Part shown: one piece after another, positions 18,501-34,692 of the stretch
Layout: each line of letters opens with the position of its first letter
Numbering within the stretch: the stretch's first letter is position 1
DNA from: Heterodera schachtii
Lineage: Eukaryota; Nematoda; Chromadorea; Rhabditida; Heteroderidae
NCBI GenBank assembly: GCA_023374025.1
Contig: SIJG01000099.1
Span: 164,906-228,905, forward strand
Direction of reading: 5' to 3'
Length of the DNA stretch: 64,000 nucleotides
Made by a program: the position numbers and the translations under genes
Notes under the pieces: model-generated
Databases searched by the model: none
Seen by the model: the letters and a program-made list of their open reading frames with translations, nothing else
What the model was told of the DNA's origin: nothing

Positions 18501-20621
18501 TAGAGATGCGCCGTGAATCACGGTCACGGTACCAATTCACGGTTATTCCGTGAAAAATTTACACTGGATAAAATCGAAAATTTACGAATTACATATTGTT
18601 TTCAAAGAGATATTTGGTCATTTTTTGGGAAATTTTTGGTAAGAAACAGAGCAAAATTTTTAAAAATTTCCCCGGCGGCGCCTATCGGCACCGCCGGCCC
18701 AATCTCTATTCCTGAAACTTTTTGAACAAAGTCAACAACCAATATTGTGCGAAAACTAGAGATGCGCCGTGACTGAAAAAACCCGTGAACCGTGACCGTG
18801 ACCGTGAATTGACCCCGTGAAACGTGACCGTGACCGTGAATTGGTACCGTGAATCGTGACCGTGACCGTGATCCAAAAAACCCGTGAAATTCCCGGTTTT
18901 CGTGACCGTGACCGTGAATTTTTTTTAGTTAAATTTTTCCCCGTCGGCGAATTTTTTGTTTTTACACTGTCTTTTTTGTGGTAAAATTTCCAAAAAATGT
19001 TGGAAACAGGGTATCCAGCAGGGACGGCGAATTTTTTAAAAATTTGATTGCAATTTGTTAACAGATTTTTTCGTAAAAAGAGCCAAAAATGAGAACCATA
19101 AAAAATTGGTCTCGAGTCTCGGGGTCAAGTCTCGGTCTCGAGCCTCGAAAAATTTTCGGTCTCAAACAGCACTACCATTGGCACGCGCGGAGCGCCCATA
19201 ATTTGCATATTTCTCATAATTTTGCGTTCAAAATCGATTCCAATCTTTTTTACATGGTTTTTTGTTTTTCATCTAGAAGATATTTTGCCCAATTTAGTAA
19301 GAAAATAAGGGTTATAGTGGACAATATTTGAAAATTTTTTGGGATTTGTTAATTGCTTTTGCCCAAAATAACCTAATTTCGAGCGAGTTTTTAATGAATT
19401 TAATGAGTTTTTATTTAAATGGGGTTATCCTTGAAACTTGACTTTTTATTTGTTTTCGCTAGAGATGCGCCGTGAATCACGGTCACGGTACCAATTCACG
19501 GTTATTCCGTGAAAAATTTACACTGGATAAAATCGAAAATTTACGAATTACATATTGTTTTCAAAGAGATATTTGGTCATTTTTTGGGAAATTTTTGGTA
19601 AGAAACAGAGCAAAATTTTTAAAAATTTCCCCGGCGGCGCCTATCGGCACCGCCGGCCCAATCTCTATTCCTGAAACTTTTTGAACAAAGTCAACAACCA
19701 ATATTGTGCGAAAACTAGAGATGCGCCGTGACTGAAAAAACCCGTGAACCGTGAAACGTGACCGTGACCGTGAATTGACCCCGTGAAACGTGACCGTGAC
19801 CGTGAATTGGTACCGTGAATCGTGACCGTGACCGTGATCCAAAAAACCCGTGAAATTCCCGGTTTTCGTGACCGTGACCGTGAATTTTTTTTAGTTAAAT
19901 TTTTCCCCGTCGGCGAATTTTTTGTTTTTACACTGTCTTTTTTGTGGTAAAATTTCCAAAAAATGTTGGAAACAGGGTATCCAGCAGGGACGGCGAATTT
20001 TTAAAAATTTGATTGCAATTTGTTAACAGATTTTTTCGTAAAAAGAGCCAAAAATGAGAACCATAAAAAATTGGTCTCGAGTCTCGGGGTCAAGTCTCGG
20101 TCTCGAGCCTCGAAAAATTTTCGGTCTCAAACAGCACTACCATTGGCACGCGCGGAGCGCCCATAATTTGCATATTTCTCATAATTTTGCGTTCAAAATC
20201 GATTCCAATCTTTTTTACATGGTTTTTTGTTTTTCATCTAGAAGATATTTTGCCCAATTTAGTAAGAAAATAAGGGTTATAGTGGACAATATTTGAAAAT
20301 TTTTTGGGATTTGTTAATTGCTTTTGCCCAAAATAACCTAATTTCGAGCGAGTTTTTAATGAATTTAATGAGTTTTTATTTAAATGGGGTTATCCTTGAA
20401 ACTTGACTTTTTATTTGTTTTCGCTAGAGATGCGCCGTGAATCACGGTCACGGTACCAATTCACGGTTATTCCGTGAAAAATTTACACTGGATAAAATCG
20501 AAAATTTACGAATTACATATTGTTTTCAAAGAGATATTTGGTCATTTTTTGGGAAATTTTTGGTAAGAAACAGAGCAAAATTTTTAAAAATTTCCCCGGC
20601 GGCGCCTATCGGCACCGCCGG
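15568..20621 (+). repeat. Tandem array of ~960-bp units (five full plus one partial)
   Basis: Unit starts (TAGAGATGCGCCGTGAATCA) lie at 15568, 16584, 17542, 18501, 19460 and 20425, giving spacings of 1016, 958, 959, 959 and 965 bp. Each unit also holds a second TAGAGATGCGCCGTGACTGA about 317 bp in, CCGTGA hexamer runs, a GC palindrome (GGCGGCGCC..GGCACCGCC) and a GAGACC/CTCGAG block. Units are nearly identical, so amplification is recent. The first unit has an extra ~58 bp of hexamers. Every unit carries identical 70-aa open frames that I do not regard as genes. Confidence 0.9.
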
Positions 20622-21498
20622 GTTTGAGACCGAAAATTTTTCGAGGCTCGAGACCGAGACTTGACCCCGAGACTCGAGACCAATTTTTTATGGTTCTCAT
20701 TTTTGGCTCTTTTTACGAAAAAATCTGTTAACAAATTGCAATCAAATTTTTAAAAATTCGCCGTCCCTGCTGGATACCCTGTTTCCAACATTTTTTGGAA
20801 ATTTTACCACAAAAAAGACAGTGTAAAAACAAAAAATTCGCCGACGGGGAAAAATTTAACTAAAAAAAATTCACGGTCACGGTCACGATTCACGGTACCA
20901 ATTCACGGTCACGGTCACGTTTCACGGGGTCAATTCACGGTCACGGTCACGTTTCACGGTTCACGGGTTTTTTCAGTCACGGCGCATCTCTAGTTTTCGC
21001 ACAATATTGGTTGTTGACTTTGTTCAAAAAGTTTCAGGAATAGAGATTGGGCCGGCGGTGCCGATAGGCGCCGCCGGGGAAATTTTTAAAAATTTTGCTC
21101 TGTTTCTTACCAAAAATTTCCCAAAAAATGACCAAATATCTCTTTGAAAACAATATGTAATTCGTAAATTTTCGATTTTATCCAGTGTAAATTTTTCACG
21201 GAATAACCGTGAATTGGTACCGTGACCGTGATTCACGGCGCATCTCTAGCGAAAACAAATAAAAAGTCAAGTTTCAAGGATAACCCCATTTAAATAAAAA
21301 CTCATTAAATTCATTAAAAACTCGCTCGAAATTAGGTTATTTTGGGCAAAAGCAATTAACAAATCCCAAAAAATTTTCAAATATTGTCCACTATAACCCT
21401 TATTTTCTTACTAAATTGGGCAAAATATCTTCTAGATGAAAAACAAAAAACCATGTAAAAAAGATTGGAATCGATTTTGAACGCAAAATTATGAGAAA
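20622..21498 (-). repeat. Inverted satellite unit, part 1
   Basis: From 20622 the sequence is the reverse complement of the array unit, starting at the GTTTGAGACC block and running past two GGCGCATCTCTA motifs (20985 and 21235 regions) to the retrotransposon insertion point. The switch occurs at the end of the GC palindrome of the sixth forward unit. Confidence 0.85.
21494..21498. repeat. Left 5-bp target duplication AGAAA
   Basis: Repeated at 34235-34239 on the other side of the LTR element. The uninterrupted satellite reads ..TATGAGAAATATGC.., which contains a single AGAAA. Confidence 0.85.
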
Positions 21499-22330
21499 CT
21501 GTCCGAACTCCTGTTGTGTGCGGGTGTGGGCGCGGTGGAGTCCGACAATGCCTGCACTTGGGTGCAGGACTTTCGACAAGTTGGGGGGAGAGCACAAAGG
21601 GGCTGGGGCGATCGAGACGGGACTACGGTCGGATTGGGCCGCAAAAAGCACAGAAAATTACCACCAAATTTTATCTCAAACTTGGGTAATTAAACCATTG
21701 AAATTGTGAGCAATGGGGGAGGACAATTGAGGGGGGCAAAATCGGCCAAATGGGCCACAAAGTGGAAAATGTGAACAATTTGGCCCTATTAGCCCATCAC
21801 AAAAAGATCGCATTGAAATTGGTCAAAATGGGGGAAATTGGGAGAGCAAGGAGTTGGAGCAGTACAACAACGGAAATGTGTGAGGGGGCTTAATCAATGC
21901 ATGGAATGGCTTGGGGGGCGCCGTGTTGGTGATTGATTGGGGAGCGGGGCGCCTGTGAGACAATTGTGGGGGGCGAGAGGAAGAGAGAGAGAGAGAGAGA
22001 GAGAGAGGGGGCTGAAGCAGCACTTTGGTGTGCTGCTGATGATTGGTGTGTTGATGAAGTGCTGGTGTTGAGCACTTATTTATATTGGCCAAAAAGTGGG
22101 GAGAGAATGGGCGAGTTGAAGCTGATAAGGCGGGAGGAACGGAAAATTGCTGGGGGGAGTGACAGCCGATGATAAGGATTGGGGGAGGAATGTCACTCAA
22201 TCGAACATTGGCCCCAAATTTGAAAATTGTTTAATTTGGTTTTTGGTTTTTGGGGCCAATTCAATTTTGCACAATTTGTGCACAATTGCAAAATCAAATT
22301 ATTTGATTTTCGCGAAGGGCAATCGCGACA
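21499..22330 (-). repeat. 3' LTR (832 bp)
   Basis: Near-identical to 33401-34234. In sense it runs TGTCGCGATTGCC..GTTCGGACAG. It includes a (GA)n run near 21982-22010. The sequence before it in sense (CCTCGGGAG) is only a weak polypurine tract. Confidence 0.9.
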
Positions 22331-22406: not shown

Positions 22407-25400
22407 TCAGTCGTCCGCCAGTTTCATCGGTCGCAAGCGTCCGAAGGGCGTGTCTTCCGTTGCGCTGTGGGCTCTTGCTCTCGTTCGGAATGAGGCCATT
22501 GCTGTCGTCGTGTCCTGTCGGATTGGTGGATTCGATTGCTCGGGCAATTGACGTCGTTTCCGCCGGATCGGTGTGCTTGGCATTTCCCTCAATGGCATGT
22601 CCTCGTATTGTGGTTGGATTTGAGGCGTTGGCTGATTCTTTGGTCGAAATCCAATCAGGGTCATGAGTGTGATGCGAATGGGGTTCAGGAAGTAGGCGAT
22701 TAAGCAGGGTAGGATGACGTCGCGGCAAAGTAGGAATGTGGAATATGCCGAGGCGAGACGTATCCACCATTGGATTGCTTCCTGTAGCCGTTCTTGGAGC
22801 CATCGGATGGTCCATCCTTCGATTCCGCCGGGTAAAGCTCCAAGTGCTTCCGCTCGTTGTGTCGTTTGTTGTTCCAGTTTGGTTTTGAAGTCTTCCGAGT
22901 CTTCGAATTCGTCGATGTGTGGAAAGTTGGCAAAGTCGGTGTCGTTGTCGAGCTGCCACTGATGGAAGATCAGTGGGTGGAGATCCAAATCGTTGTCCGT
23001 TTTGTTGAGGATCGTCTCGTAGAGCTCGTGGATGGCTGTTTGTGCCAATCGTTGGACGTTTCCATTTTTTGAGTCGATTCGCACCCACAAGTTGGGTTTT
23101 TGTTGCACTTGCAGATGATGGTAGCGAAATTGTGAGCAACTTGCGATTTTTGAGATGAGTGAGAGGATGCGCATCTCCGGGTCGAGGAATGCGTCCTGTG
23201 TTGTGTTTGGCAGATGGATTGTGACCGGGATGAACTTGTAGCAGTCCTTCGTTGTCCGGTAGCTGATGTTGGACAGGGAGATTGGAACGCAGGGAAACAC
23301 TTCGATTGTTGTTTCGCTGATCCATCGGGCTTGCAGATTTTCGCGCTTGAGGAGTTTTCGTGCCTGAAGAGTTGGGTTGCTGACGCGCACGTTGCGCTGG
23401 CATTCCTTCAAGTAGAGTTGCGAGAGTGCCATTGTTGTGGCAAGTTGAGCAGCTGAAAGCTGCGATGCGAGTTGCTCGGGTTGCACGTTGCGTCTCGCTC
23501 TTGTGTGGTCGCTCATGATGATGTCGTATTGCTCTTTCGGAATGCCGAAGTTCTGCTCCGACAGGACGATTTGTCTCCCGTCGCATGCTTGCACTGCATG
23601 AGTCTCAGTGAAGGTCAGTGCCTTTTGTCGGTCGTCCGAGATCCAAAATGCTGTTGTTTGACCGTTGAGCTTGGTGAATTCTCCTTGGATTTCTTCGGCT
23701 TCTTGGAAGTCGCACATGAAGCAATTGTCGTTTGGGCATGCTGAAGTCCAGATGAGTGAACTGTTGTCCTGCAGCTGGCAATACTCGGAGGCATAATTGC
23801 AGTGGTCTGCGCGATGAATTGGCGACAGTAGTTGGAGACTGTGCCATTTGACGAACAAGGTTGCTGGTTGCGCAAAGCAATTTGTTGCCGAGCTGGTTTG
23901 TTTCCCTTTGAAGAGTCCGGTGATTGGTCCAGGGAAATCCACATGGAGTTGGTCGTTTGTTGCCCAAATGTGATTGTTGTTGTCGTGGTGCATTTCCGTT
24001 TTGGCGAGTGGGCATTCTTGCTGATGTGCCATTCGTTGGCAGAGTCGTTTGGAGACCAACGGAAATTCTTTGTTGATTTCGACGAACTTATCGCCGACGA
24101 TGTTTGTGTAATAAGTTTCCGTCGTCGTTTTGATGAAGCAGTGCCATGCCGTTGCGATTGGTTCTGGTCGATGGATCTTGGTGTACAGTGTGATGGTCAG
24201 TGGTGTCCATTGCGCGGTGAGTGCGGGTGGTGGTCGGCAGAATGGTGAGTTTTCTGGGCCCTTCAGTTCCCAGAGTGTGCTGCCGTGGCTTGAACACCAA
24301 AAGACGTCGCGTCCTTCTTCTGTGGTGATTGGGCTTTTGGGCCAGCGGATCAACTTGATTCCTGGGCGTGGCCGTTGTTGTGGACGTGATCTGTACGCTG
24401 TAGTTGTTCGGTAGTCCATGGTCCGTGGCATTGGCGTCGTCGTGGTTGTCCAGGCGTTGGGCCGTGTGGTCGCTTTGGTCGACCAAGTTGTTGAACGTGT
24501 TTTGGTTGTGGTCGCCGTTGTGCGTGGTGGACTTGTAGTCGTTGTCATTTGTGTCGTTGTTGTGGTCCATGGCGGATTTGTTGGTGCCGGTGGAGTCGTT
24601 GTTTGGCTCAGACTCCGATTAAGGGCGAGGACTTTGTCGATGTATCGCTGGACGTATGGACTGTGTTTTGTTGCCGTCCTTTTTTCACGTTCCGTGAAGA
24701 TGTTGAGGAAGTTGAAAAGGTGGCCGCCGTGCCATGCTTTGATTTCCGCAATTCGTTTTTGTCGGATTGGTTGTCCTTGTGCCGAACCGATGAAGAGAAG
24801 GCAAAGGAGGCTGATCAGCATTAGCGAGCTGATCACTTGTTGACTTGTTGACGGTCCGGGCCGGGCTGAACTTGTTGATGTTGACGTCCCGGGTTCTTGA
24901 TCCAACTCCATTGGTTCCGGCATCGTTTGTTTGATCCGGTTGGCGATTCGTCGTGCTTCTCCGATTTCTCGGTTGAAAACAAAGAAGCCGGCCTTCAGTT
25001 CACGGGTGACGTCGATCAGATATTTTTTGTTGCTGATCCATTGGTTGCTGTCGTCCTTGGCGAGGATCAATGTTGTTTCGATCTCCGATCGCATGAATCG
25101 ATGAAGCATTGGTGCGATCTGCGCGGCCATGTTGTCGGCTGTCGCTTGGTACGCGAAGATCAAGTGTTTGACCTTCGGTCCGGGGATGAGTCGGAATTCG
25201 TCCGCCGGGAAATGTGTGAACCATTTGGCGTCGTAAAAGAGTGGCTTGAACACTTCGGCAACGTTGTCTCCGATCAAGATTGTTGTGCAGTTGTAGTTCA
25301 GGTATGTTGGATGTTGTGCCTTGGTCCGAGCTTTGGAGAAGATTTCCGCCGTGCGATTGTTGAGCCGTTCGATCCATTCTCCGTAGCCGCTTTGTTGTTC

Positions 25401-28400
25401 GCTTTCTGTTGTGATTGGCCGAAACTTCACTTGCTTGTGTGCCGGTTGATTGTAAAGTTCGCCAAATCGGTCGCAGGAGTTGCGCCAGACATTGATGACC
25501 TCGGCCAAATGCTGGTCTCGTGCGATTTGTCGTCCGCTGTCCGCAACTTGTTGTTGGTAGAACATTTGCGCGACTTCTTCCACTGTTGTGTCGGCTTGAA
25601 TGTAGCCTTCGTGCGCCGCCCAAATCTCTTCCGCTGGCAAGTTCATGTTGCGTGTCAGCCAGTTGAAGAGCAGTGCCTCGAAGAAATTGTTGGCACGGAA
25701 GTTTTGGAATTCTTCCATTTGAAATCGGTTGCCTGCGGTGGAACCGTAAGTCGCTGTTTTGGCACAAGTTGTGTGCGTGTTGTCACATGGCTCGAACAGG
25801 TTGAATTGGCTGTGCGTGTTTGGTTTGGAGTCGGCCATGCGGTATTCCTCGAGTTTTGGTGATTGTGGTCGTTGCGGTTTTGGTGGGCGCTTCGTTTGTT
25901 CCGTATTTGTTGCCGGTGCCGTTGTGTCGTCGATTGTTATGATTTCCGGTTGTTCTTCAGTTGGCACGGCTTGGAGGAAGATCACATCTTCAGGCACCAT
26001 GTGTGAGTAGTATCCGCCTTCCACGAAGCGGAACTCGGCGAATGGTCGTTTTCCTCCGTACATTCGTGAAACGCTGAGTTGAAGGCCATCGGATTTGTGA
26101 TGGATCATCCATCGTCCTTGGTCCTCCAGTTCGTGGAGTTCTCGGAGAACACGTCCGCGTTGCCATGCTGACGTCCAATTCTCTGATCCGTAAATGCGTT
26201 GAACGTAGTTGAGCAGCGTTTCTTTTTCCTCTGGCCATTCGTCCCTTGGCCGCTGTCGCTTCTCTTGCATGTCGATTGTCTTTTTTCTGCCGATGCGATG
26301 TCGTTCAAGCCCTTTGTCCTTTGCTGCTTGTTGCTTTGATTTCGTTGGCTGATCCGTTTCTTCCGGTTGCTTCTCTGTCGGATCCGGCTGATCCATCAGA
26401 TCGTAGTCAAATTGTCGTGCCAATTCTTGCCATGCCTTGCTGCGTGTTTGTTGATTGTTGGCACGTTGTTCGTCGTTTTGTTGCCTTTCGATTTGTTGAC
26501 GTTCGGCTTCTCGTTGCTGCTCTTCTGTCGTTGATTGTGGCACTTCTTGAATTTCTTTTCGCTGCTGTTTTTCGGGTTGAAGATGTCGATTTGCTTCTTG
26601 TTGACTCTTCTTCACCATTCGTTGCTCGTGCTCAATTTGCTCATGACGTGGTGCCTTCTGCACTTCTCGACTTTCCTCGATGGCCTGCGTGGTGGCCTTG
26701 CTGCTTCCTTGTTGGTCCGCGATGGCTTGGAATAACTTGCGCAAGCCTGAGTCTTGTAGTTGCTTGCGGCGTTTGTGTTGTCCTTGCAATGGACTTTGTT
26801 GCTGACCGATGGGTCGTAACAATGCCGAGCGTCGTTTCGGAATTTTGAACTTTTTCTTTGGTCGTGGTTGTTGGCTTTCGTCGTCGCTGCCGGCAAGTGA
26901 AACTGAGTCGTCCATGACTGATGCGATGAAGCTGTGGACTGCTTGAATTGGTTGCTCTGGAATCTCAGGGTCCAATTCCAAATTGTACAATTGGTTTATT
27001 GCCCTATCCCTTAATTTCCCATTGATTTTAAGCAAAGCACTGCGCGCTCTTCCGTCTTTTCCTATTAGGACTTTCTCGATCCTTGCCAAACTCCACAAGG
27101 ATCTTGGCACTTGATCGTCTTCAACGATCACAATGTCGCCGTCGTTGGGGATTTGTAGTCCTGTTGTTCCCTTTTGTTGATTGTCGCGTTCGCGCAGCGA
27201 AAGAAGGTAGTCTTGTCTCCACACTTCCCAGAATTTGTTCAGCCGAGCATTGACGTGGCGCAGTGTTGCCACCATTTTGTCTCGATTTGTCGGATTTGGT
27301 TCGTACGTTGGGTCGTTTGTGTCGTCATCGATGATTGGGAAGTTGTTCACTGCCTTGTTGTATGGTATCAGGAAGTTGATTGGGCGCAGCACTTTGATTG
27401 GTGCTTGATCCGATTCGAATGTGAGCGGCCGGTTGTTGATGATTGATTCGATCTCGCAGAGCATTGTGCCGAACTCGTCCAATGTGAGGAGGTGTCTGCC
27501 AATTGTTCGTCGTAATGCGTTTTTGGTGATGCCGACCAATCTTTCCCAAATGCCGCCTCTCCAAGGGGCATAGGCTGTGTTGAAGACCCAACTGATTCCG
27601 CTGTGGGCCATTTGTTGCTGTAGTTCCTCCGGCATTAATGTATCAGTCCATTTTTCTTTGATGACTTTTGCTCCTGCCACGAAGTTGGTGCCTTGGTCGG
27701 ACATGATGAGTGATGGTATGCCTCTCCTGGCAGTGAATCTCCGAAAGGCTCGGAGGAATGCTTCCGCTGAGTAGTCTTCGGCAACTTCCAAATGAATTGC
27801 GCGAATGGATAAGCAGGTGAAGAGAGCGACGTAGATTTTCACCACTTCATTGCCTTGTTTGACTTTAAGTGGACCAAAATAGTCCACTCCCGTTTTGTCG
27901 AATGGTCGTGCTTCGCTGACTCTGTCCTTCGGCAGATCTGGTGCCTCGGGATATTCGTATGGCTTGACCCGTTCACGTCGGCATTCGAGACATCCGTGCT
28001 GAGGTGATGTCAGCAATTGCATGATCACTCTGCGTCCGCGTGGTATCCAGAACTTCTCTCGCAACGTTGAAAGGAGTATTCTTGGACCACAGTGTTTGAG
28101 CTGTTTGTCGTAATGCCGGATGATGAGCTTGGTGATCCATGCTTGCGGTGGCAGAAAGATTGGGTGTTTGCTGTTGTATGGCAGATCCGGTGCTTCCTCG
28201 AGTCGTCCGCCGCATCTCCAAATTCTTTCTTGTTGGAAAAGTTGCAATTCTCGGATTTGATCGTTGGATGGTGGATGAAGCCGCTGCGCTTCTCTCAAAA
28301 TCCATTTTTCTGCCTGTTGCAGTTGTGCCACCGTCAATGTTCCATTGTTGTGGTGTTCGCCTTTGATTGTGCCATTTTTGAGTGCGCGAAGCTTTGCGAT

Positions 28401-31400
28401 GAAGCGCATGGCGTATGCTGCGGTGGCCTTCAGCCTGTTCCAGTTCGAGAGTCGCTCGAAGCAGATTGATGGTTTGAATTGTTCCTCAACTTGAACATTT
28501 GTTGTCATTTCGACGATTGGTGGCTCTTCCACTTCTTGGATTTCATCTCCGGGTCGGTAGATGACGTTTGATTCCGGCCACTTGTCGGCTTTCGAAAGCC
28601 AAAGTGGGCCAAAGCGCCAAAGCAGTGATGTCCGAAGGCATTGAGGATCCGTTCCTCTGGATGCCATATCCGCTGGGTTTGAGTCGGTTCTGACGTGTCG
28701 GACTTGGAAGTTGGCTTCCCGTATTTTTTGTAACCGATTTGCGACAAATCGATCTTGGCGTTTGTTGTCTCGAAGTCGTTCGACTGAGCATTGACTGTCG
28801 GTCCACATGATGACTTGATGGTCTGCGAACTTGATTTGCGCTTGGATGAATTTGACTGCCTTGACTCCGAGAGTCAGTGCTTGAAGTTCCAACTTTGGAA
28901 TGGTGCCGTCGTGCGCGGCCACTTTGATTGGTTTGACAAGGCTCTTTGCGTAGATGAGGTTGCATTCATCCTTCATGATCGTTGTTTTGGCTTTTTGGTA
29001 CACGGCAATTCCCATGCCGTATTTGCTGGCGTCGCAGAAGCAGTGGAATTCCACTGAGTCGATGGCTTGGATGTGCCGTGGAAATTCGATTGTGATGGCT
29101 TCTCCTCTGTCGAGCCATTGTGCCATCAATTTGAGCCAGTCCTTGCTGATGTTTGCTGGCAACTCGTCGTCCCATTTTGGATTCAAGTTTTGCACTTCTT
29201 GAAGAATGAGCTTGGCTGGCAGTAGGACGGGTGACATGAGTCCGAGCGGGTCGTAGACTTTGGCAATTTGCGACAGAATTGTCCGCTTTGTGATGTTGCC
29301 TTCGAAGATCGGCAGCTTGAAGATGAGCCGATTGTGCTTTGGTTTCCAACGAATGCCGAGCACTTTGTTGTCTTCGAGGTCCTTTGCCAAGTCGTCCGGT
29401 TGCAGCTTTCTCAGTTCTTCGATGTTGCTTCCGTAGAATTCTCGGAGTTTCATGCCCGCTGCTTCGAAGATTGTTTTGGCTTGCGTCACCAAATCTTGAA
29501 GCTTTTCTGTTGGCTTGGCGTCGAACATGATGTTGTCGACGTACAGATTCTCTTCGATCCGCCTCGCTAGGTCGGAGTCGAATAGCGCGAGGTGCTCCCG
29601 TATGGTGGCATTGAGCAGGAATGGAGACACCGTCAGGCCGAAACTGACACGGCAGAATCGGTAGATGCGCAATTCGGAGTGGTCGATTGGATTGAGCTCT
29701 GCTGTCTCGGGGTTGTTGAGCCAAATGAATCTGCAGGCATCTCTGTCCGCGTGTCGGATGCCAAGTTGCAGAAATGCCTTTTCGATGTCTGCCAGGATCA
29801 CATGTTCCATTTGTCGGAAGCGCAGGAGGATTCCAGTGAGATCCTTTAGCAGTTGTGGTCCGGTGTATAAGCAGTCGTTCAAGGATGGTGCTGATGGACA
29901 ATTTTTTGGCTTTGCTGACGCATCCATGACGATTCGGATTTTGGTTGTTGCTTTATCCGCTCTGATGACTGCTCTGTGTGGCAGAAAGTGCACAGGCCAT
30001 GCACTTGATGGAGACTCGGGTGGGCCGATGTATTCGATGACTGAGTTTTGAACTTGCTCGTCCAAAATTGCCTGATATTTGTCAATCAGGTTGAGGCTGC
30101 GCAGTCTTTTGATCAATGAGATGAGCCTAGCTTTGGCTTGATGGATGTTGCTTGGAAGAGCATCGACTCTGTCGTTCCAGGGTAAGGCGACTTGGTATCG
30201 GTTGTTGACGAACGTGAGGTTCTTTTTGAAGTGGATCATTACATGATCCTGATCGATTGGTGTTGATGTGTCGTCCATGCCGATCAGATTTAATCCGAAG
30301 AAATTGTTGAGTTGCTCATCCTTTTTGAAATCATCTTCGGATGTGAAGACTTCCGTTACTTCTTTGGTTGATTCGAACGTGACGGATTGATTGGCTTCTT
30401 CTTGTTCAGTGCCGTGGACTGACAGGACAAATGTGACGTTTGATGCTTGGTGCATTTCGATGCGTCCTGATCCGCTGAGGATTTTGCCGATTTTGGATCG
30501 GCAAAGTGTGAAGCCGCTTGGTAGCTTCTCGATTGGTTGAACCTGCAGTTCGTGCCAGACATCAATTCCGAGCATGATGTCAGGTTGGCGTTGCTCATGC
30601 GGAGGATTGAGCTTTTGTTGCCTCAACTCTGTCTTGTCCAGCTCTGACAGTTGAATCATTGGCATGTCGTTGACCAAGAATTTCATGGCGTTGAGGTTGA
30701 AGATGAGTTTTTCCCCGCTCGTGCAGAGAAATCCGAGCTTGACCAGGTCGCTGATGTATCTCTTCGGTTCGCGCTCTCCGAAGCTGGTCAAGTGGCATTC
30801 TTCGGTGTGGACCACCGGGAGATCCAGTAGCTGTGCTGCCTTTGCCGAAATGAATGATCGATGGCTGCCTGGATCGATGAAAATTGCCGCAGTCATGCTG
30901 AGATGCGGCTGTGCTGGATTGAAGACCGTTGAAGTTGCGGTCATGAGGAGTGCGCGAGTGTCGCTTCCTTTTACGGCATTGCACATTTGCGATGTCGATG
31001 CCGTTGGTTCGTTGCTTTCGGCTTGAGTTGTGATTGGCACATTTTGTTGTGTTTGCCCAAACATTGCTGCTGTGATTTGGTTCGGTGGCTTTTCGTCCGC
31101 ATAACATAATGCCGTTGGATGAGGTTGTTTGCATTTGAAGCATCTTTTCGGTTGTGGGCAATTACTTGCTTGATGATTGCTTTTGAGGCATTTGAAGCAT
31201 AATGCCTTTGTGCGCAGCACTTCTCTTCGCTGTTGAATTGTGCTGTATTTCCGGCATTCTTCATTCCAGTGATCGTTGTCACAGAAGATGCATGGACTTG
31301 GAGGCTTGCGTTGATTGAATGTCGCATTGGCATGTTGAGTTGGAAATTGCCTTTGATTGTTGGTCGCATTGGCACGTTGAGTTGGAAATTGCCGTTGATT

Positions 31401-32696
31401 GTTGCTCGCATTGGCATATTGAGTTGGAAATTGCCTTTGATTGTTGAAAGTGCGCAGGTTTCTTTGTTGCGGTTGTGGTGCGCGAGGCCTTTGTTGCTGT
31501 GGCCTGTGTTGAGGCTGTCTGTTGATCAGCCTTTTGTGATTGTCATCCACTGCTGAGGTGATGAATGTGCGTTCCCTTTGCTGCGCGATTGGTGCGCGGT
31601 CTCGGAATTTCGATGCCGAGAAATTGGGCCTTTGTGGTTGCGGCCGTTGTTGCTGCGAGTGTCCGTACTCGCCCATGACTTCTTGGATTTGGGTTTCTTT
31701 TCGAACCGCTTCGTTGAGTACGTCTCGGAACTTTGTCGTGTTCCAGCGTGCCGGGTCTTCTCCCTTTTTTGTGAGGATTGTGCGCAGAAATCCGGGAGTG
31801 AGCTTCTTTTCAAGCATGAGGAAGGTTGGCGGACCTTCGATGTCTTCTCCTGAGTTGTTGAGTTCGCGTGTGAGTCGTTCGAGTTGCAGGAGGAATTCTT
31901 TGGTGTCGCGCAGGTTCTTGCAGGGCTTGAGGTTTGCCAATTCGAAGTGAAGTGCCCTGATGTGTTCGTCCGGTGCGCCGTATGTGTCCTTCAGCAATTG
32001 GAGGGCCGTGTCGTAATTGTTGTCTTCCAATCGAAAGCCGGCCACGAGTTCACGGGCCTCTCCTCCGAGCAGGTTGCGCAGGAGATTGAACTTCTCCGCT
32101 TTGCTGAGTGCGTGTGTGCCGATTGCTGATTTGAACGATTCGTAGAACTCCGGCCATTTGCGTTTGTTGCCAAAGAACTTGTCCAGCTGGATTGGCTGGA
32201 ATTGGTAGAACGGAGGAGTGAAGGACGGCGTCTTGTTTGGTTGTTGCTGCGCGGTGTGTTGCATTGCGTTTGCATGAGCTGCTTGAGCGTCCCGCTCTTC
32301 TTTGTCCGCCTTGCTGCGGTAGAGTCGGGATTGAACTGTGAGTGTGCTGATCAGGTCGCGCAAGTCGCGCAGCTTCAGTGCTGCTTCGTCGACTTTGTCG
32401 GTTGTTCGCTCCTTTTTCTCGAACTTGTTGAAGTCTGCTTCTGCTGGATCGCGTTCCGTTGCAGGCAGTTTGCGCAGTAAATCCGCCCATGCTGTGAGCG
32501 ATTCTCGTACGTCGTCGAGGAAGATGTCCATTGTTTTTGCTTCCTTTTGGACCTTCTCCAGTTGAGCCTCGAAATTGAATGCGTTTTCGAGGTTTGATGC
32601 CGCTTGATCGGCTTGGATGTGCAGTTCCGCCGCAGTTCGGCTGCGGGAGAGAACTTTGAGAGCAGCGCTGAGTTTCTGTTGAATTGGTGCGGCCAT
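22407..32696 (-). CDS. BEL/Pao gag-pol-env-like polyprotein, 3429 codons
   Basis: Single open frame; ATG at 32696 in good context (AACAATGGCC). Visible in order: gag (DUF1759-like) around 170-260; zinc knuckles about 465-535 ([40 protein letters not shown]); aspartic protease [12 protein letters not shown] near 606 (DPG instead of the usual DS/TG); reverse transcriptase with AFLQLG and YVDN near 1052 (YVDD is usual); RNase [11 protein letters not shown] near 1219 and WTDSQCSV near 1297; integrase HHCC zinc finger about 1530-1565 and catalytic Asp-Asp-Glu near 1603, 1664 and 1716; DUF5641-like domain about 1850-1920. Then a Gln-rich basic region (about 1940-2200), an unassigned globular region (about 2230-2580), and an env-like part with a signal-anchor stretch ([17 protein letters not shown], about 2625), RQKR and RARR basic sites and a C-terminal membrane segment near 3315-3350. 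Env origin not assigned. Confidence 0.9.
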
Positions 32697-32699
32697 TGT

Positions 32700-32850
32700 T
32701 TGCTCTGTTGCTGTTGCTGTACTTGTTGTTTGCTGAACTGCTTGCTGTGCTTGTTGCTATTGACTGCTTGCTGTGCTTGTGCTTGTGCTTGCTGTGCTTG
32801 CTTGGCTTGTTGCTTGCTTTGTTGCTTTGCTTGTTGATTGGCTGCTCTTG
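32700..32850 (-). promoter_or_regulatory. CAA/AGCA-rich unstructured leader before gag
   Basis: In sense this stretch is a run of AAGCA, CAGCAA and CAACAAG words with very few U, directly before the polyprotein ATG. It is predicted to be unstructured, in contrast to the hairpin array upstream of it. CAA-rich leaders are known to favour ribosome scanning; the role here is inferred. Confidence 0.45.
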
Positions 32851-32851
32851 T

Positions 32852-33291
32852 TGTACTGCTGACACGGAGATCAAGCAGTACACTTGTGTTGTTCCGACCG
32901 TTTGACTTGTCCGCGTCGGGTTGGAGTAACTGCTGCCACGGAGAGCGAGCAGTTCACACCAACTGTCCTTCCTTTGCTTGGCAAGGACCGGTACTGCTGC
33001 CACGGAGAGCGAGCAGTACTTTGCTTGATTACTGGCGGCACGGAGACCGACCAGTAATTGCCCCTATTACTGATGGCACGGAGACCGATCAGTAATATTA
33101 CCGATTACTGGCGGCACGGAGACCGACCAGTAATTTGACCAATTACTGCTGGCACGGAGACCGAGCAGTAATTTGACCTAGGAAATACTGATGGCACGGA
33201 GACCGATCAGTATTTCCCCGAACTCCCACTTTTGCTTCCCCCCTCCTTGTTGTGTCCAAGTTTTGCCACGGAGAGCGAAAACTTGGAACAC
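32852..33291 (-). repeat. Array of nine covarying hairpins in the retrotransposon leader
   Basis: Nine palindromic units at 32852-32882, 32928-32954, 32991-33019, 33028-33058, 33065-33097, 33104-33134, 33141-33173, 33181-33217 and 33252-33291. Each has a 7-12 bp outer stem of differing sequence, an inner 2-bp stem, the invariant loop CACGGAGA (sense strand TCTCCGTG) and, on the 3' side of the plus strand, one bulged base that is G in eight units and A in the first. Stem bases change in compensating pairs between units: ACTGCT/AGCAGT, ACTGGC/ACCAGT, CTGAT/ATCAG, AGTTTT/AAAACT; inner pair A-T, C-G or G-C. This pattern indicates selection on RNA or DNA structure. Not part of any open frame. Confidence 0.85.
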
Positions 33292-33382
33292 TTGTGAATT
33301 TTTCCAAATTCACCACACCTTTTCCGTTGAGTGCACCGCCGCGGCTTGTCGCGCACTGTTGCTGTTTGTCGTTGCAGGGTCG

Positions 33383-33400
33383 TCCCTGCCAGGGTCGCCA
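33383..33400 (-). promoter_or_regulatory. Primer-binding site
   Basis: In sense TGGCGACCCTGGCAGGGA starts immediately after the 5' LTR. TGG is the complement of a tRNA 3' CCA. The first eight bases, TGGCGACC, fit the 3' end of arginine tRNAs that finish GGTCGCCA; the tRNA identity is inferred. Confidence 0.65.
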
Positions 33401-33880
33401 CTGTCCGAACTCCTGTTGTGTGCGGGTGTGGGCGCGGTGGAGTCCGACAATGCCTGCACTTGGGTGCAGGACTTTCGACAAGTTGGGGGGAGAGCACAAA
33501 GGGGCTGGGGCGATCGAGACGGGACTACGGTCGGATTGGGCCGCAAAAAGCACAGAAAATTACCACCAAATTTTATCTCAAACTTGGGTAATTAAACCAT
33601 TGAAATTGTGAGCAATGGGGGAGGACAATTGAGGGGGGAAAAATCGGCCAAATGGGCCACAAAGTGGAAAATGTGAACAATTTGGCCCTATTAGCCCATC
33701 ACAAAAAGATCGCATTGAAATTGGTCAAAATGGGGGAAATTGGGAGAGCAAGGAGTTGGAGCAGTACAACAACGGAAATGTGTGAGGGGGCTCAATCAAT
33801 GCATGGAATGGCTTGGGGGGCGCCGTGATGGTGATTGATTGGGGAGCGGGGCGCTTGTGGGACAATTGTGGGGGGCGAGA

Positions 33881-33914
<34 letters not shown>

Positions 33915-34234
33915 GCTGAAGCAGCACTTTGGTGTGCTGCTGATGATTGGTGTGTTGATGAAGTGCTGGTGTTGAGCACTTATTTATATTGGCCAAAAAG
34001 TGGGGAGAGAATGGACGAGTTGAAGCTGATAAGGCGGGAGGAACGGAAAATTGCTGGGGGGAGTGACAGCCGCTGATAAGGATTGGGGGAGAAATGTCAC
34101 TCAATCGAACATTGGCCCCAAATTTGAAAATTGTTTAATTTGGTTTTTGGTTTTTGGGGCCAATTCAATTTTGCACAATTTGTGCACAATTGCAAAATCA
34201 AATTATTTGATTTTCGCGAAGGGCAATCGCGACA
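33401..34234 (-). repeat. 5' LTR (834 bp)
   Basis: Near-identical to 21499-22330; the right flank is the AGAAA duplication at 34235-34239. The promoter is presumed to lie here; TTATTTATATTGGCC at about 33978 is AT-rich but I cannot assign a TATA box. Confidence 0.85.
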
Positions 34235-34692
34235 AGAAATATGCAAATTATGGGCGCTCCGCGCGTGCCAATGGTAGTGCTGTTTGAGACCGAAAATTTT
34301 TCGAGGCTCGAGACCGAGACTTGACCCCGAGACTCGAGACCAATTTTTTATGGTTCTCATTTTTGGCTCTTTTTACGAAAAAATCTGTTAACAAATTGCA
34401 ATCAAATTTTTAAAAATTCGCCGTCCCTGCTGGATACCCTGTTTCCAACATTTTTTGGAAATTTTACCACAAAAAAGACAGTGTAAAAACAAAAAATTCG
34501 CCGACGGGGAAAAATTTAACTAAAAAAAATTCACGGTCACGGTCACGAAAACCGGGAATTTCACGGGTTTTTTGGATCACGGTCACGGTCACGATTCACG
34601 GTACCAATTCACGGTCACGGTCACGTTTCACGGGGTCAATTCACGGTCACGTTTCACGGTTCACGGGTTTTTTCAGTCACGGCGCATCTCTA
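34235..34692 (-). repeat. Inverted satellite unit, part 2, with right terminal repeat
   Basis: Continues the reverse-complement unit exactly where the retrotransposon interrupted it and ends TCACGGCGCATCTCTA, followed by GCTCAAAG of gene F exon 2. Confidence 0.85.

Follow-up and report, generated by a model that had tools for sequence, protein, structure and literature searches.

The window, by which we mean the whole 64-kb stretch of Heterodera schachtii DNA under analysis, contains a 12,736-bp BEL/Pao element that runs on the minus strand from position 34234 to 21499. Its principal features, in sense order, are:

33401..34234, minus strand, 5' LTR (834 bp), with a TTTCT flank at 34235-34239
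33377..33400, minus strand, primer-binding-site region (TGGCGACCCTGGCAGGGAC...), the start of the leader
22407..32696, minus strand, gag-pol open reading frame (3429 aa) with DUF1759, DUF1758, RVT_1, Peptidase_A17 and DUF5641, followed by about 1500 aa
31104..31292, minus strand, three CCHC-type zinc knuckles of Gag (aa 469-481, 500-513 and 519-531; motif search)
21499..22330, minus strand, 3' LTR (832 bp), with a TTTCT flank at 21494-21498

The TTTCT on both sides of the element is a 5-bp target-site duplication, and the two LTRs are identical in 823 of 833 aligned columns, in an alignment that lacks the last LTR base. Assignment to BEL/Pao is based on a Pao peptidase (PF05380, Peptidase_A17; E = 6.5e-41) and a reverse transcriptase within one polyprotein, the latter at 29.1 bits just below the RVT_1 cut-off of 29.6 (E = 9.8e-7), and on LTRs within 0.2-1.2 kb and the target-site duplication. 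The element exceeds the length of 4-10 kb stated in the ICTV profile (PMC8742986), which is a family range and not a defining criterion. The tail of about 1500 aa that follows DUF5641 (window 22407-26981, minus strand) matched no family above cut-off and showed only a weak mucin-like stretch; it is possibly an envelope-like part, and it makes the element longer than the family range. A scan of IMG/VR with the reverse transcriptase piece returned no match. At the LTR edge, in the position of the primer site, which in BEL/Pao elements is complementary to tRNA-Arg or tRNA-Gly, TGGCGACC... was seen, and the leader extends for 704 nt from the start of the primer-binding site (33400) to the gag ATG (32696) without containing an ATG. 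The flanks of the element (window 20000-21498 and 34235-34683) contain long direct and inverted repeats, several of them perfect, together with CCGTGAAC-type minisatellites, and look as if the element inserted into a repeat-rich or folded-back locus. A 42-nt tandem repeat lies within gag directly before the zinc knuckles (window 31295-31446), and a 317-codon open frame (window 32050-33003, minus strand) overlaps the leader and gag in a different frame, probably by chance.

Between the primer-binding site and gag, the leader carries nine sense-strand hairpins (32852-33287, minus strand):

33255..33287, minus strand, hairpin 1 (5'-most on the sense strand): 10-bp outer stem, C bulge, inner pairs GC/GC, loop TCTCCGTG
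33180..33218, minus strand, hairpin 2: 13-bp outer stem, C bulge, GG/CC
33141..33173, minus strand, hairpin 3: 10-bp outer stem, C bulge, GG/CC
33104..33134, minus strand, hairpin 4: 9-bp outer stem (one G-U), C bulge, GG/CC; pairs with hairpin 6 in the whole-leader fold
33065..33097, minus strand, hairpin 5: 10-bp outer stem, C bulge, GG/CC
33028..33058, minus strand, hairpin 6: 9-bp outer stem (one G-U), C bulge, GG/CC; pairs with hairpin 4 in the whole-leader fold
32991..33019, minus strand, hairpin 7: 8-bp outer stem, C bulge, GC/GC
32928..32954, minus strand, hairpin 8: 7-bp outer stem, C bulge, GC/GC
32852..32882, minus strand, hairpin 9: 9-bp outer stem, T bulge, GA/TC

Each hairpin is built from an outer stem of 7-13 bp (G-U allowed), a single bulged base in the 5' arm, an inner stem of two pairs (G-C, then N-N') and the loop TCTCCGTG, which is present in 9/9. 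The bulged base is C in eight hairpins and T in one, and the inner pairs are GG/CC in five, GC/GC in three and GA/TC in one. The string GNTCTCCGTGNC occurs nine times in the 64-kb window against 0.03 expected, a number that none of 100 shuffles reached, and within the window the matches to this string and to the hairpin model fall in the leader only, at all nine sites. These results confirm on the minus strand the nine hairpins that had been described in the initial annotation, with their invariant loop, single bulge and variable second inner pair, and the domains, LTRs and leader place them, as proposed there, in a BEL/Pao element, downstream of the primer-binding site and ahead of gag. The complementarity of the outer stems also held up, with the reported length of 7-12 bp revised to 7-13 bp when G-U pairs are included. 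A coding reading of the array was rejected because the unit spacings include 38, 64 and 74, which are not multiples of three.

We searched the genome of this nematode (178.5 Mb in 356 contigs), which is the source of all arrays described here. The single motif YGNTCTCCGTGNC gave 145 matches compared with 34 for the reversed pattern, and pairs of motifs 22-52 nt apart gave 47 compared with 0. A pattern that fixes part of the stem only, CTGNNNGNYCTNNGTRNCNNCAG, gave at least 98 matches compared with 0 reversed (counts with this pattern are lower bounds), and all 98 fall in 24 arrays at 22 places, two of which have tandem copies. The arrays comprise three families: family A, the type found in the window, with four arrays of nine hairpins; family D, with eight arrays of 8-11 hairpins (weak ones counted) and a Gag 89-94% identical to that of A in the five measured; and family B, with twelve arrays of six hairpins and a Gag 55% identical to that of A in the one measured. 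Three further places were rejected as arrays, namely C6:652276 (L010), which has neither a hairpin array nor a hairpin match, and the singles L026 (C83) and L027 (C31), the latter with one weak partial match to the model. Where tandem copies of leader and gag start were observed, they lay 3.07 kb apart at L025 (100% identical over the 1887 bp compared) and about 5.7 kb apart at L009 (99% identical over 2167 bp), and they reflect either duplication or an effect of assembly.

To reach more distant relatives, we examined 20 stretches upstream of Pao peptidase genes, taken in sets of five, five and ten from 135 peptidase matches; the first ten were selected because their peptidase scored close to that of the window element, and two of these already had YGNTCTCCGTGNC matches, which makes this a non-random sample. 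Arrays were present in seven of the 20, of which three belong to family D (L059, L060 and L063) and four are of other types (L066, L068, L069 and L061). Family E (L066) has six bulged hairpins with the loop CUCCGA or CUUCGA. Family F (L068 and L069) has six hairpins with the loop GUCCGA or GUCCGU, three of them with a one-base bulge, one with a two-base bulge, which in L068 RNAfold closes to a UCCG tetraloop, and two with small internal loops. Family G (L061) has eleven hairpins with an unbroken upper stem and the loops UUUUGU, UUUCGU and UUCCGU, and its Gag showed 32% identity. A loop-agnostic search for hairpins with alike loops recovered nine in the window, seven in D, six each in B and E, three in F and nine in G, compared with at most 2-3 in shuffles. 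In the genome, the E type occurs at six places and the F type at four (62 matches compared with 10 reversed, unrelated minisatellites included), and the G-type pair gave 75 matches compared with 13 reversed, counted by place rather than read letter by letter. The primer site in B and E, TGGCGCTCC, differs from that in A and D while the loops are alike, and a role together with the primer tRNA is therefore disfavoured.

The other 13 stretches upstream of a Pao peptidase showed no such array; a presumed gag start was in reach only in L062, L078, L079 and probably L071, and elsewhere the leader was unreached or unresolved. The leader of the more distant element in L062 (848-1655) contains AT-rich, hairpin-like repeats of the ATCAGTTTTGAT type, and its four hairpin-like units do not exceed shuffles, which gave up to five. 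The minus-strand leader in L078 contains repeated GTCAGCCGCCC...AGGC units, which were not significant in the hairpin search and are perhaps another kind of array. We also observed a second group of TTTTYGTRAYYC pairs on C79, C22, C30, C46:722k, C51:695k, C93, C95:409k, C117:401k and C129, mostly as two overlapping pairs per place and at five places on C79, and minisatellites on C60, C63 and C100 with units around GTCCGAGGCGCAAATG that are unrelated to the arrays.

Within the loops, 81 of 129 copies read TCTCCGTG, and TCTTCGTG, CCTCCGTG, TCTTTGTG, TCTCCGTA, TCTCGGTG, TCTCTGTG, CCTTCGTG and TCTCCGCG occurred as well. Positions 1 and 8 of the 8-nt loop were T-G in 30, C-G in 3 and T-A in 1 of 34 distinct hairpins. 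Because these positions keep a pair, the loop proper is a hexaloop CUYYGU with three pairs above the bulge. The constancy of the 8-nt loop that had initially been noted thus stands in the nine window units, and its size is corrected to a hexaloop CUYYGU closed by U-G, C-G or U-A. Across all families, the loops that were read follow the rule N-U-Y-Y-G-W, with the exceptions of CUCGGU, a variant in B, and CUCCGC, a variant in one copy of A. The bulged base varied among 160 hairpins (C in 78, T in 63 and A in 19), which suggests that the presence of a bulge matters more than its identity. The loops are not of the UNCG tetraloop class, as UUUG, UCGG and UCUG cores also occur, the last in L025 and L064, and the units are unlike microRNA-type precursors in that their arms vary with compensation and their loops are nearly constant.

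The sense strand of the array folds better than shuffled sequence (z = -7.1, with 0/100 shuffles as good). The antisense strand also folds (z = -5.7), and therefore folding energy alone cannot choose the strand. When the whole 704-nt leader of the window element was folded, seven of the nine hairpins formed, and units 4 and 6 (33028-33134), which have identical arms, were predicted to pair together around unit 5. Whole-leader minimum-energy structures contained 7/9 hairpins for A, 6/8 for D, 4/6 for B, 3/6 for E, 5/6 for F and 9/11 for G, counts from which a spurious loop word was omitted in each of B and G; units 3 and 4 of E were likewise absent. The E leader folded only modestly better than its shuffles (z = -2.1, 3/100 as good), and z was -3.9 for F and -3.7 for G (20 shuffles for G). 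Covariation between families supports a hairpin at each unit, but units inside an array may also pair in other ways; the predicted pairing of the 4/6 type may be either a real alternative structure or an artefact of prediction.

Pairing between units also bears on whether the array promotes dimerisation of two genomic RNAs, through kissing of loops or exchange of stems. Retroviral dimer signals are also located between the primer site and gag, which is the position of the array, and its near-palindromic, repeated stems could exchange; inside a single leader, pairing between units 4 and 6 is predicted. However, self-pairing in the eight hexaloops tested amounts to no more than 2-4 of 6 pairs, and to two in the main loop CUCCGU; the loops for this test were collected with a loose hairpin criterion that took in unrelated AT-rich hairpins from B and D and only three hairpins from G, and the loop types given above rest on other readings. 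Because the hexaloops are not self-complementary, the loop-loop version of dimerisation, an option raised by the initial annotation, is disfavoured, and we consider dimerisation of either kind very improbable. Pairing of the loop with another site in the element was also rejected, as ACGGAG occurs twice compared with 3.1 expected.

The pattern of substitution indicates that structure has been conserved. Among 34 distinct hairpins, which were chosen for at least seven outer pairs, standard pairs occupy 93.4% of cells, both sides have changed in 10 of 13 pairs, and 97 cells are doubly changed. The covariation score of 0.643 was reached by 0/500 shuffles, and slid structures scored no higher than 0.101; two of the five measures were weaker, with the number of double-change pairs (10) reached by 35/500 shuffles and that of further pair types (29) by 7/500. 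Because these rows had been chosen for pairing, we repeated the test on places selected by loop alone (the loop plus the inner G and C). This selection yielded 169 places in 22 sources, of which 160 have at least four of six outer pairs, and the unconstrained inner pair is present in 159 of those 160. Eight of the nine places that did not form represent one recurring D hairpin in a shifted register, and the ninth lies outside an array. Between A and D, loops are 78% and arms 75% identical, compared with 57% for spacers, and three of nine bulges are identical. In a set of 43 distinct hairpins kept by Watson-Crick pairs alone, the sense strand showed 17 G-U cells compared with 3 A-C cells, alongside 5 other mismatches and 319 Watson-Crick cells (p = 0.0026 for G-U over A-C, with hairpins that are not independent), the bias that folding of the sense RNA would produce. 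Taken together, the compensatory changes, the better conservation of hairpins than of spacers, the preference for G-U and the arrays in related elements strongly support selection for RNA structure on the sense strand. Such selection had been put forward in the initial annotation, which named copies without the array or a lack of covariation as evidence against it; covariation is present, and the 24 copies found by pattern all carry the array, array-less copies being invisible to that pattern.

These data also bear on two explanations that do not involve a folded RNA with a function. In the first, the array is a functionless by-product of tandem duplication. Duplication did build the array, as the 38-nt spacing and mutual similarity of several units and an internal duplication in L028 indicate, but a by-product would not account for compensatory changes, a constant loop, spacers at 57% identity compared with 75-78% for hairpin parts, or dissimilar arrays that share one loop rule, and we give this explanation hardly any weight. 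In the second, the array is a site for a protein that binds DNA, such as an insulator or enhancer array, for which the tandem protein-binding sites in the gypsy leader of Drosophila provide a precedent. Stems that change yet stay complementary, the excess of G-U over A-C on the sense strand and a bulged base that is free to vary make a DNA-level site extremely improbable as well.

The Gag protein of the window element has three zinc knuckle motifs, spaced C-X2-C-X3-H-X4-C, C-X2-C-X4-H-X4-C and C-X2-C-X3-H-X4-C, of which Pfam zf-CCHC matched only the middle one, weakly and below cut-off (E = 0.049). Three knuckle motifs were found in all five families that were read there (A, B, D and F, and also G, in which the surrounding frame is broken), and thus in five of the six families; L037 and L056, which lie outside the set of leaders read, have knuckle motifs too. 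Relatives of this Gag were found in Heterodera trifolii, H. schachtii and Globodera, with a best identity of 59% in Globodera rostochiensis. A Gag tree placed B, E and F together with Heterodera rows at 100/100 and did not resolve A and D relative to Globodera rows, 14 of its 19 inner branches being open; for this reason, we draw no age from the tree.

Families E and F provide a natural swap of leaders. In the part read, the N-termini of the two Gag proteins are identical at 254 of 255 aa, and the DNA shows 99.0% identity starting 43 bases ahead of the ATG. In contrast, the leaders gave no blastn match at E <= 0.001, with matches only in two short pieces upstream of the primer site, and a forced global alignment reached 82.7% of aligned columns compared with 74.5% for shuffled letters. 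Though dissimilar, both leaders carry arrays of NUYCGW hairpins with a UYCG core. The simplest reading of these sequences is that either array can work with the one Gag, which would need a hairpin with this loop.

We propose, with moderate confidence, that the array is a cis-acting RNA element of the genomic transcript that acts as a multi-site, Gag-binding packaging signal. Each hairpin would offer a six-base loop of the common form N-U-Y-Y-G-W, carried in most families by a 5'-bulged stem; the three nucleocapsid zinc knuckles of Gag would bind the exposed pyrimidine-pyrimidine-G of the loops; and 6-11 consecutive sites would recruit several Gag molecules and so mark the RNA for assembly. More tentatively, we suggest that BEL/Pao elements of this nematode may use a repeat-coded packaging signal of interchangeable hairpins, the only fixed feature of which is a U-Y-Y-G hexaloop read by a triple-knuckle Gag, such that the whole LTR-leader module could be swapped while the same Gag remains compatible. 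Binding and packaging, which we infer from sequence, are favoured by the frequency with which loop-selected places form a hairpin (160/169), by covariation, by the restriction of 98/98 pattern matches to arrays and of the model to the leader in the window, by arrays in E, F and G that follow the same loop rule, with one Gag (E/F) accompanied by two dissimilar arrays, and by the three knuckle motifs in A, B, D, F and G. Two known systems also favour this proposal. According to PMC7599994, the nucleocapsid of murine leukaemia virus (MLV) binds UCUG in linkers, the pyrimidines lying against a hydrophobic face and the G occupying a pocket, and UCUG is among the loop cores here. Packaging signals of hepatitis B virus are stem-loops with a common loop motif, as described in PMC7612645. 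Several observations count against packaging: the motif is found in the leader only, compared with the dispersed hepatitis B model; knuckles are common to retroelements and occur in L037 and L056; 13 of 20 Pao stretches were without a visible array, with a gag start in reach in four of them (probably so for L071); and not every unit forms in whole-leader folds, with E only modestly better than shuffles.

A further point against packaging is that a role in translation also fits the leaders. All 15 measured elements of A, D, E, F and G have leaders (477-888 nt) that are free of ATG, compared with 2.2-8.3 expected from shuffles, although 5.5% of shuffles of the E leader also lacked an ATG. Among B leaders, 8/9 measured are ATG-free (L012 has one), compared with 2.3-3.0 expected, in a count that leaves out L011 and L016, which the start pattern missed, and includes one of the two copies at L009. 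Ribosomes therefore probably cross the leader, and translation control stays the main rival. In that case, a host protein or Gag bound to the hairpins of the gag mRNA would slow or permit scanning, or the array would help ribosomes bypass the leader, perhaps as a switch between translation and packaging. The hairpins of E, F and G, which fold alone at about -12.6 to -20.2 kcal/mol, would hinder scanning. However, the array-less leaders of L062, L078 and L079 are also without ATG, which indicates that the absence of ATG is not tied to the array, and a plain roadblock needs no invariant loop. On balance, we regard translation control as unlikely.

Repeated, alike sites on an unspliced RNA could instead be read by a host RNA-binding protein that exports or protects the intronless genomic RNA, for which the constitutive transport element of some retroviruses is a parallel. 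That A and B keep the loop despite 55% Gag identity favours this reading. However, the pattern used found no hairpin outside arrays (98/98 in arrays, for the one stem type searched), and a host factor leaves the change in loop flanks between families unexplained; we therefore consider a role in nuclear export or stability quite unlikely. The same count led us to reject use of the hairpin by host genes, for the stem type that this partial pattern covers. Compared with these readings, we favour a packaging signal bound by Gag; packaging had been listed in the initial annotation, as had translation control.

We found no described counterpart of this layout, in agreement with the initial annotation. 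Against Rfam 15, nothing in the window reached a gathering score, and neither the leader nor four relatives gave a credible weaker match; two weak matches far under cut-offs were to a lncRNA model (plus strand, window 33231-33372) and to a microRNA model in L068 outside the leader. In a literature search whose coverage excludes most subscription journals, no counterpart of such a leader was recognised by title or abstract. The window element resembles Belpaoviridae in its Gag-pol domains, LTRs and primer site, and the ICTV profile of that family describes replication as poorly understood and names no leader RNA structure (PMC8742986). The text of a second article on BEL/Pao (PMC3118150) is without the words hairpin, leader, untranslated, packaging and secondary structure. 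The array thus provides a concrete candidate for a cis-acting leader RNA in Belpaoviridae, one that comes with a loop rule, with natural variants and with leaders that have been swapped in nature. It may also serve as a simple model for asking what number of weak Gag sites amounts to a packaging signal, and a covariance model built from it lets annotators mark such leaders.

Among known RNA elements, the iron-responsive element is similar in having a 5' bulge, a short upper stem, a six-base loop and a location in the 5' leader, but its loop (CAGUGN) and its 5-bp upper stem are different, and Rfam gave neither a match at gathering score in the window nor a weak match to such an element in the leader or in four relatives. 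The multiple packaging signals known from hepatitis B virus (PMC7612645) and from small RNA viruses are likewise several stem-loops, some bulged, that share one short loop motif. The array has such a shared motif; those signals are dispersed throughout the genome, whereas the nine sites of the window element are clustered in the leader. The retroviral psi signal, as represented by MLV (PMC7599994), is alike in its position in the 5' leader downstream of the primer site, which the arrays occupy between the primer site and gag, in its exposed pyrimidine-pyrimidine-G sites and in a Gag with CCHC knuckles. In MLV, UCUG lies in linkers that become exposed after dimerisation, whereas the nematode array presents the motif in the loops of 6-11 tandem hairpins, to which Gag would bind.
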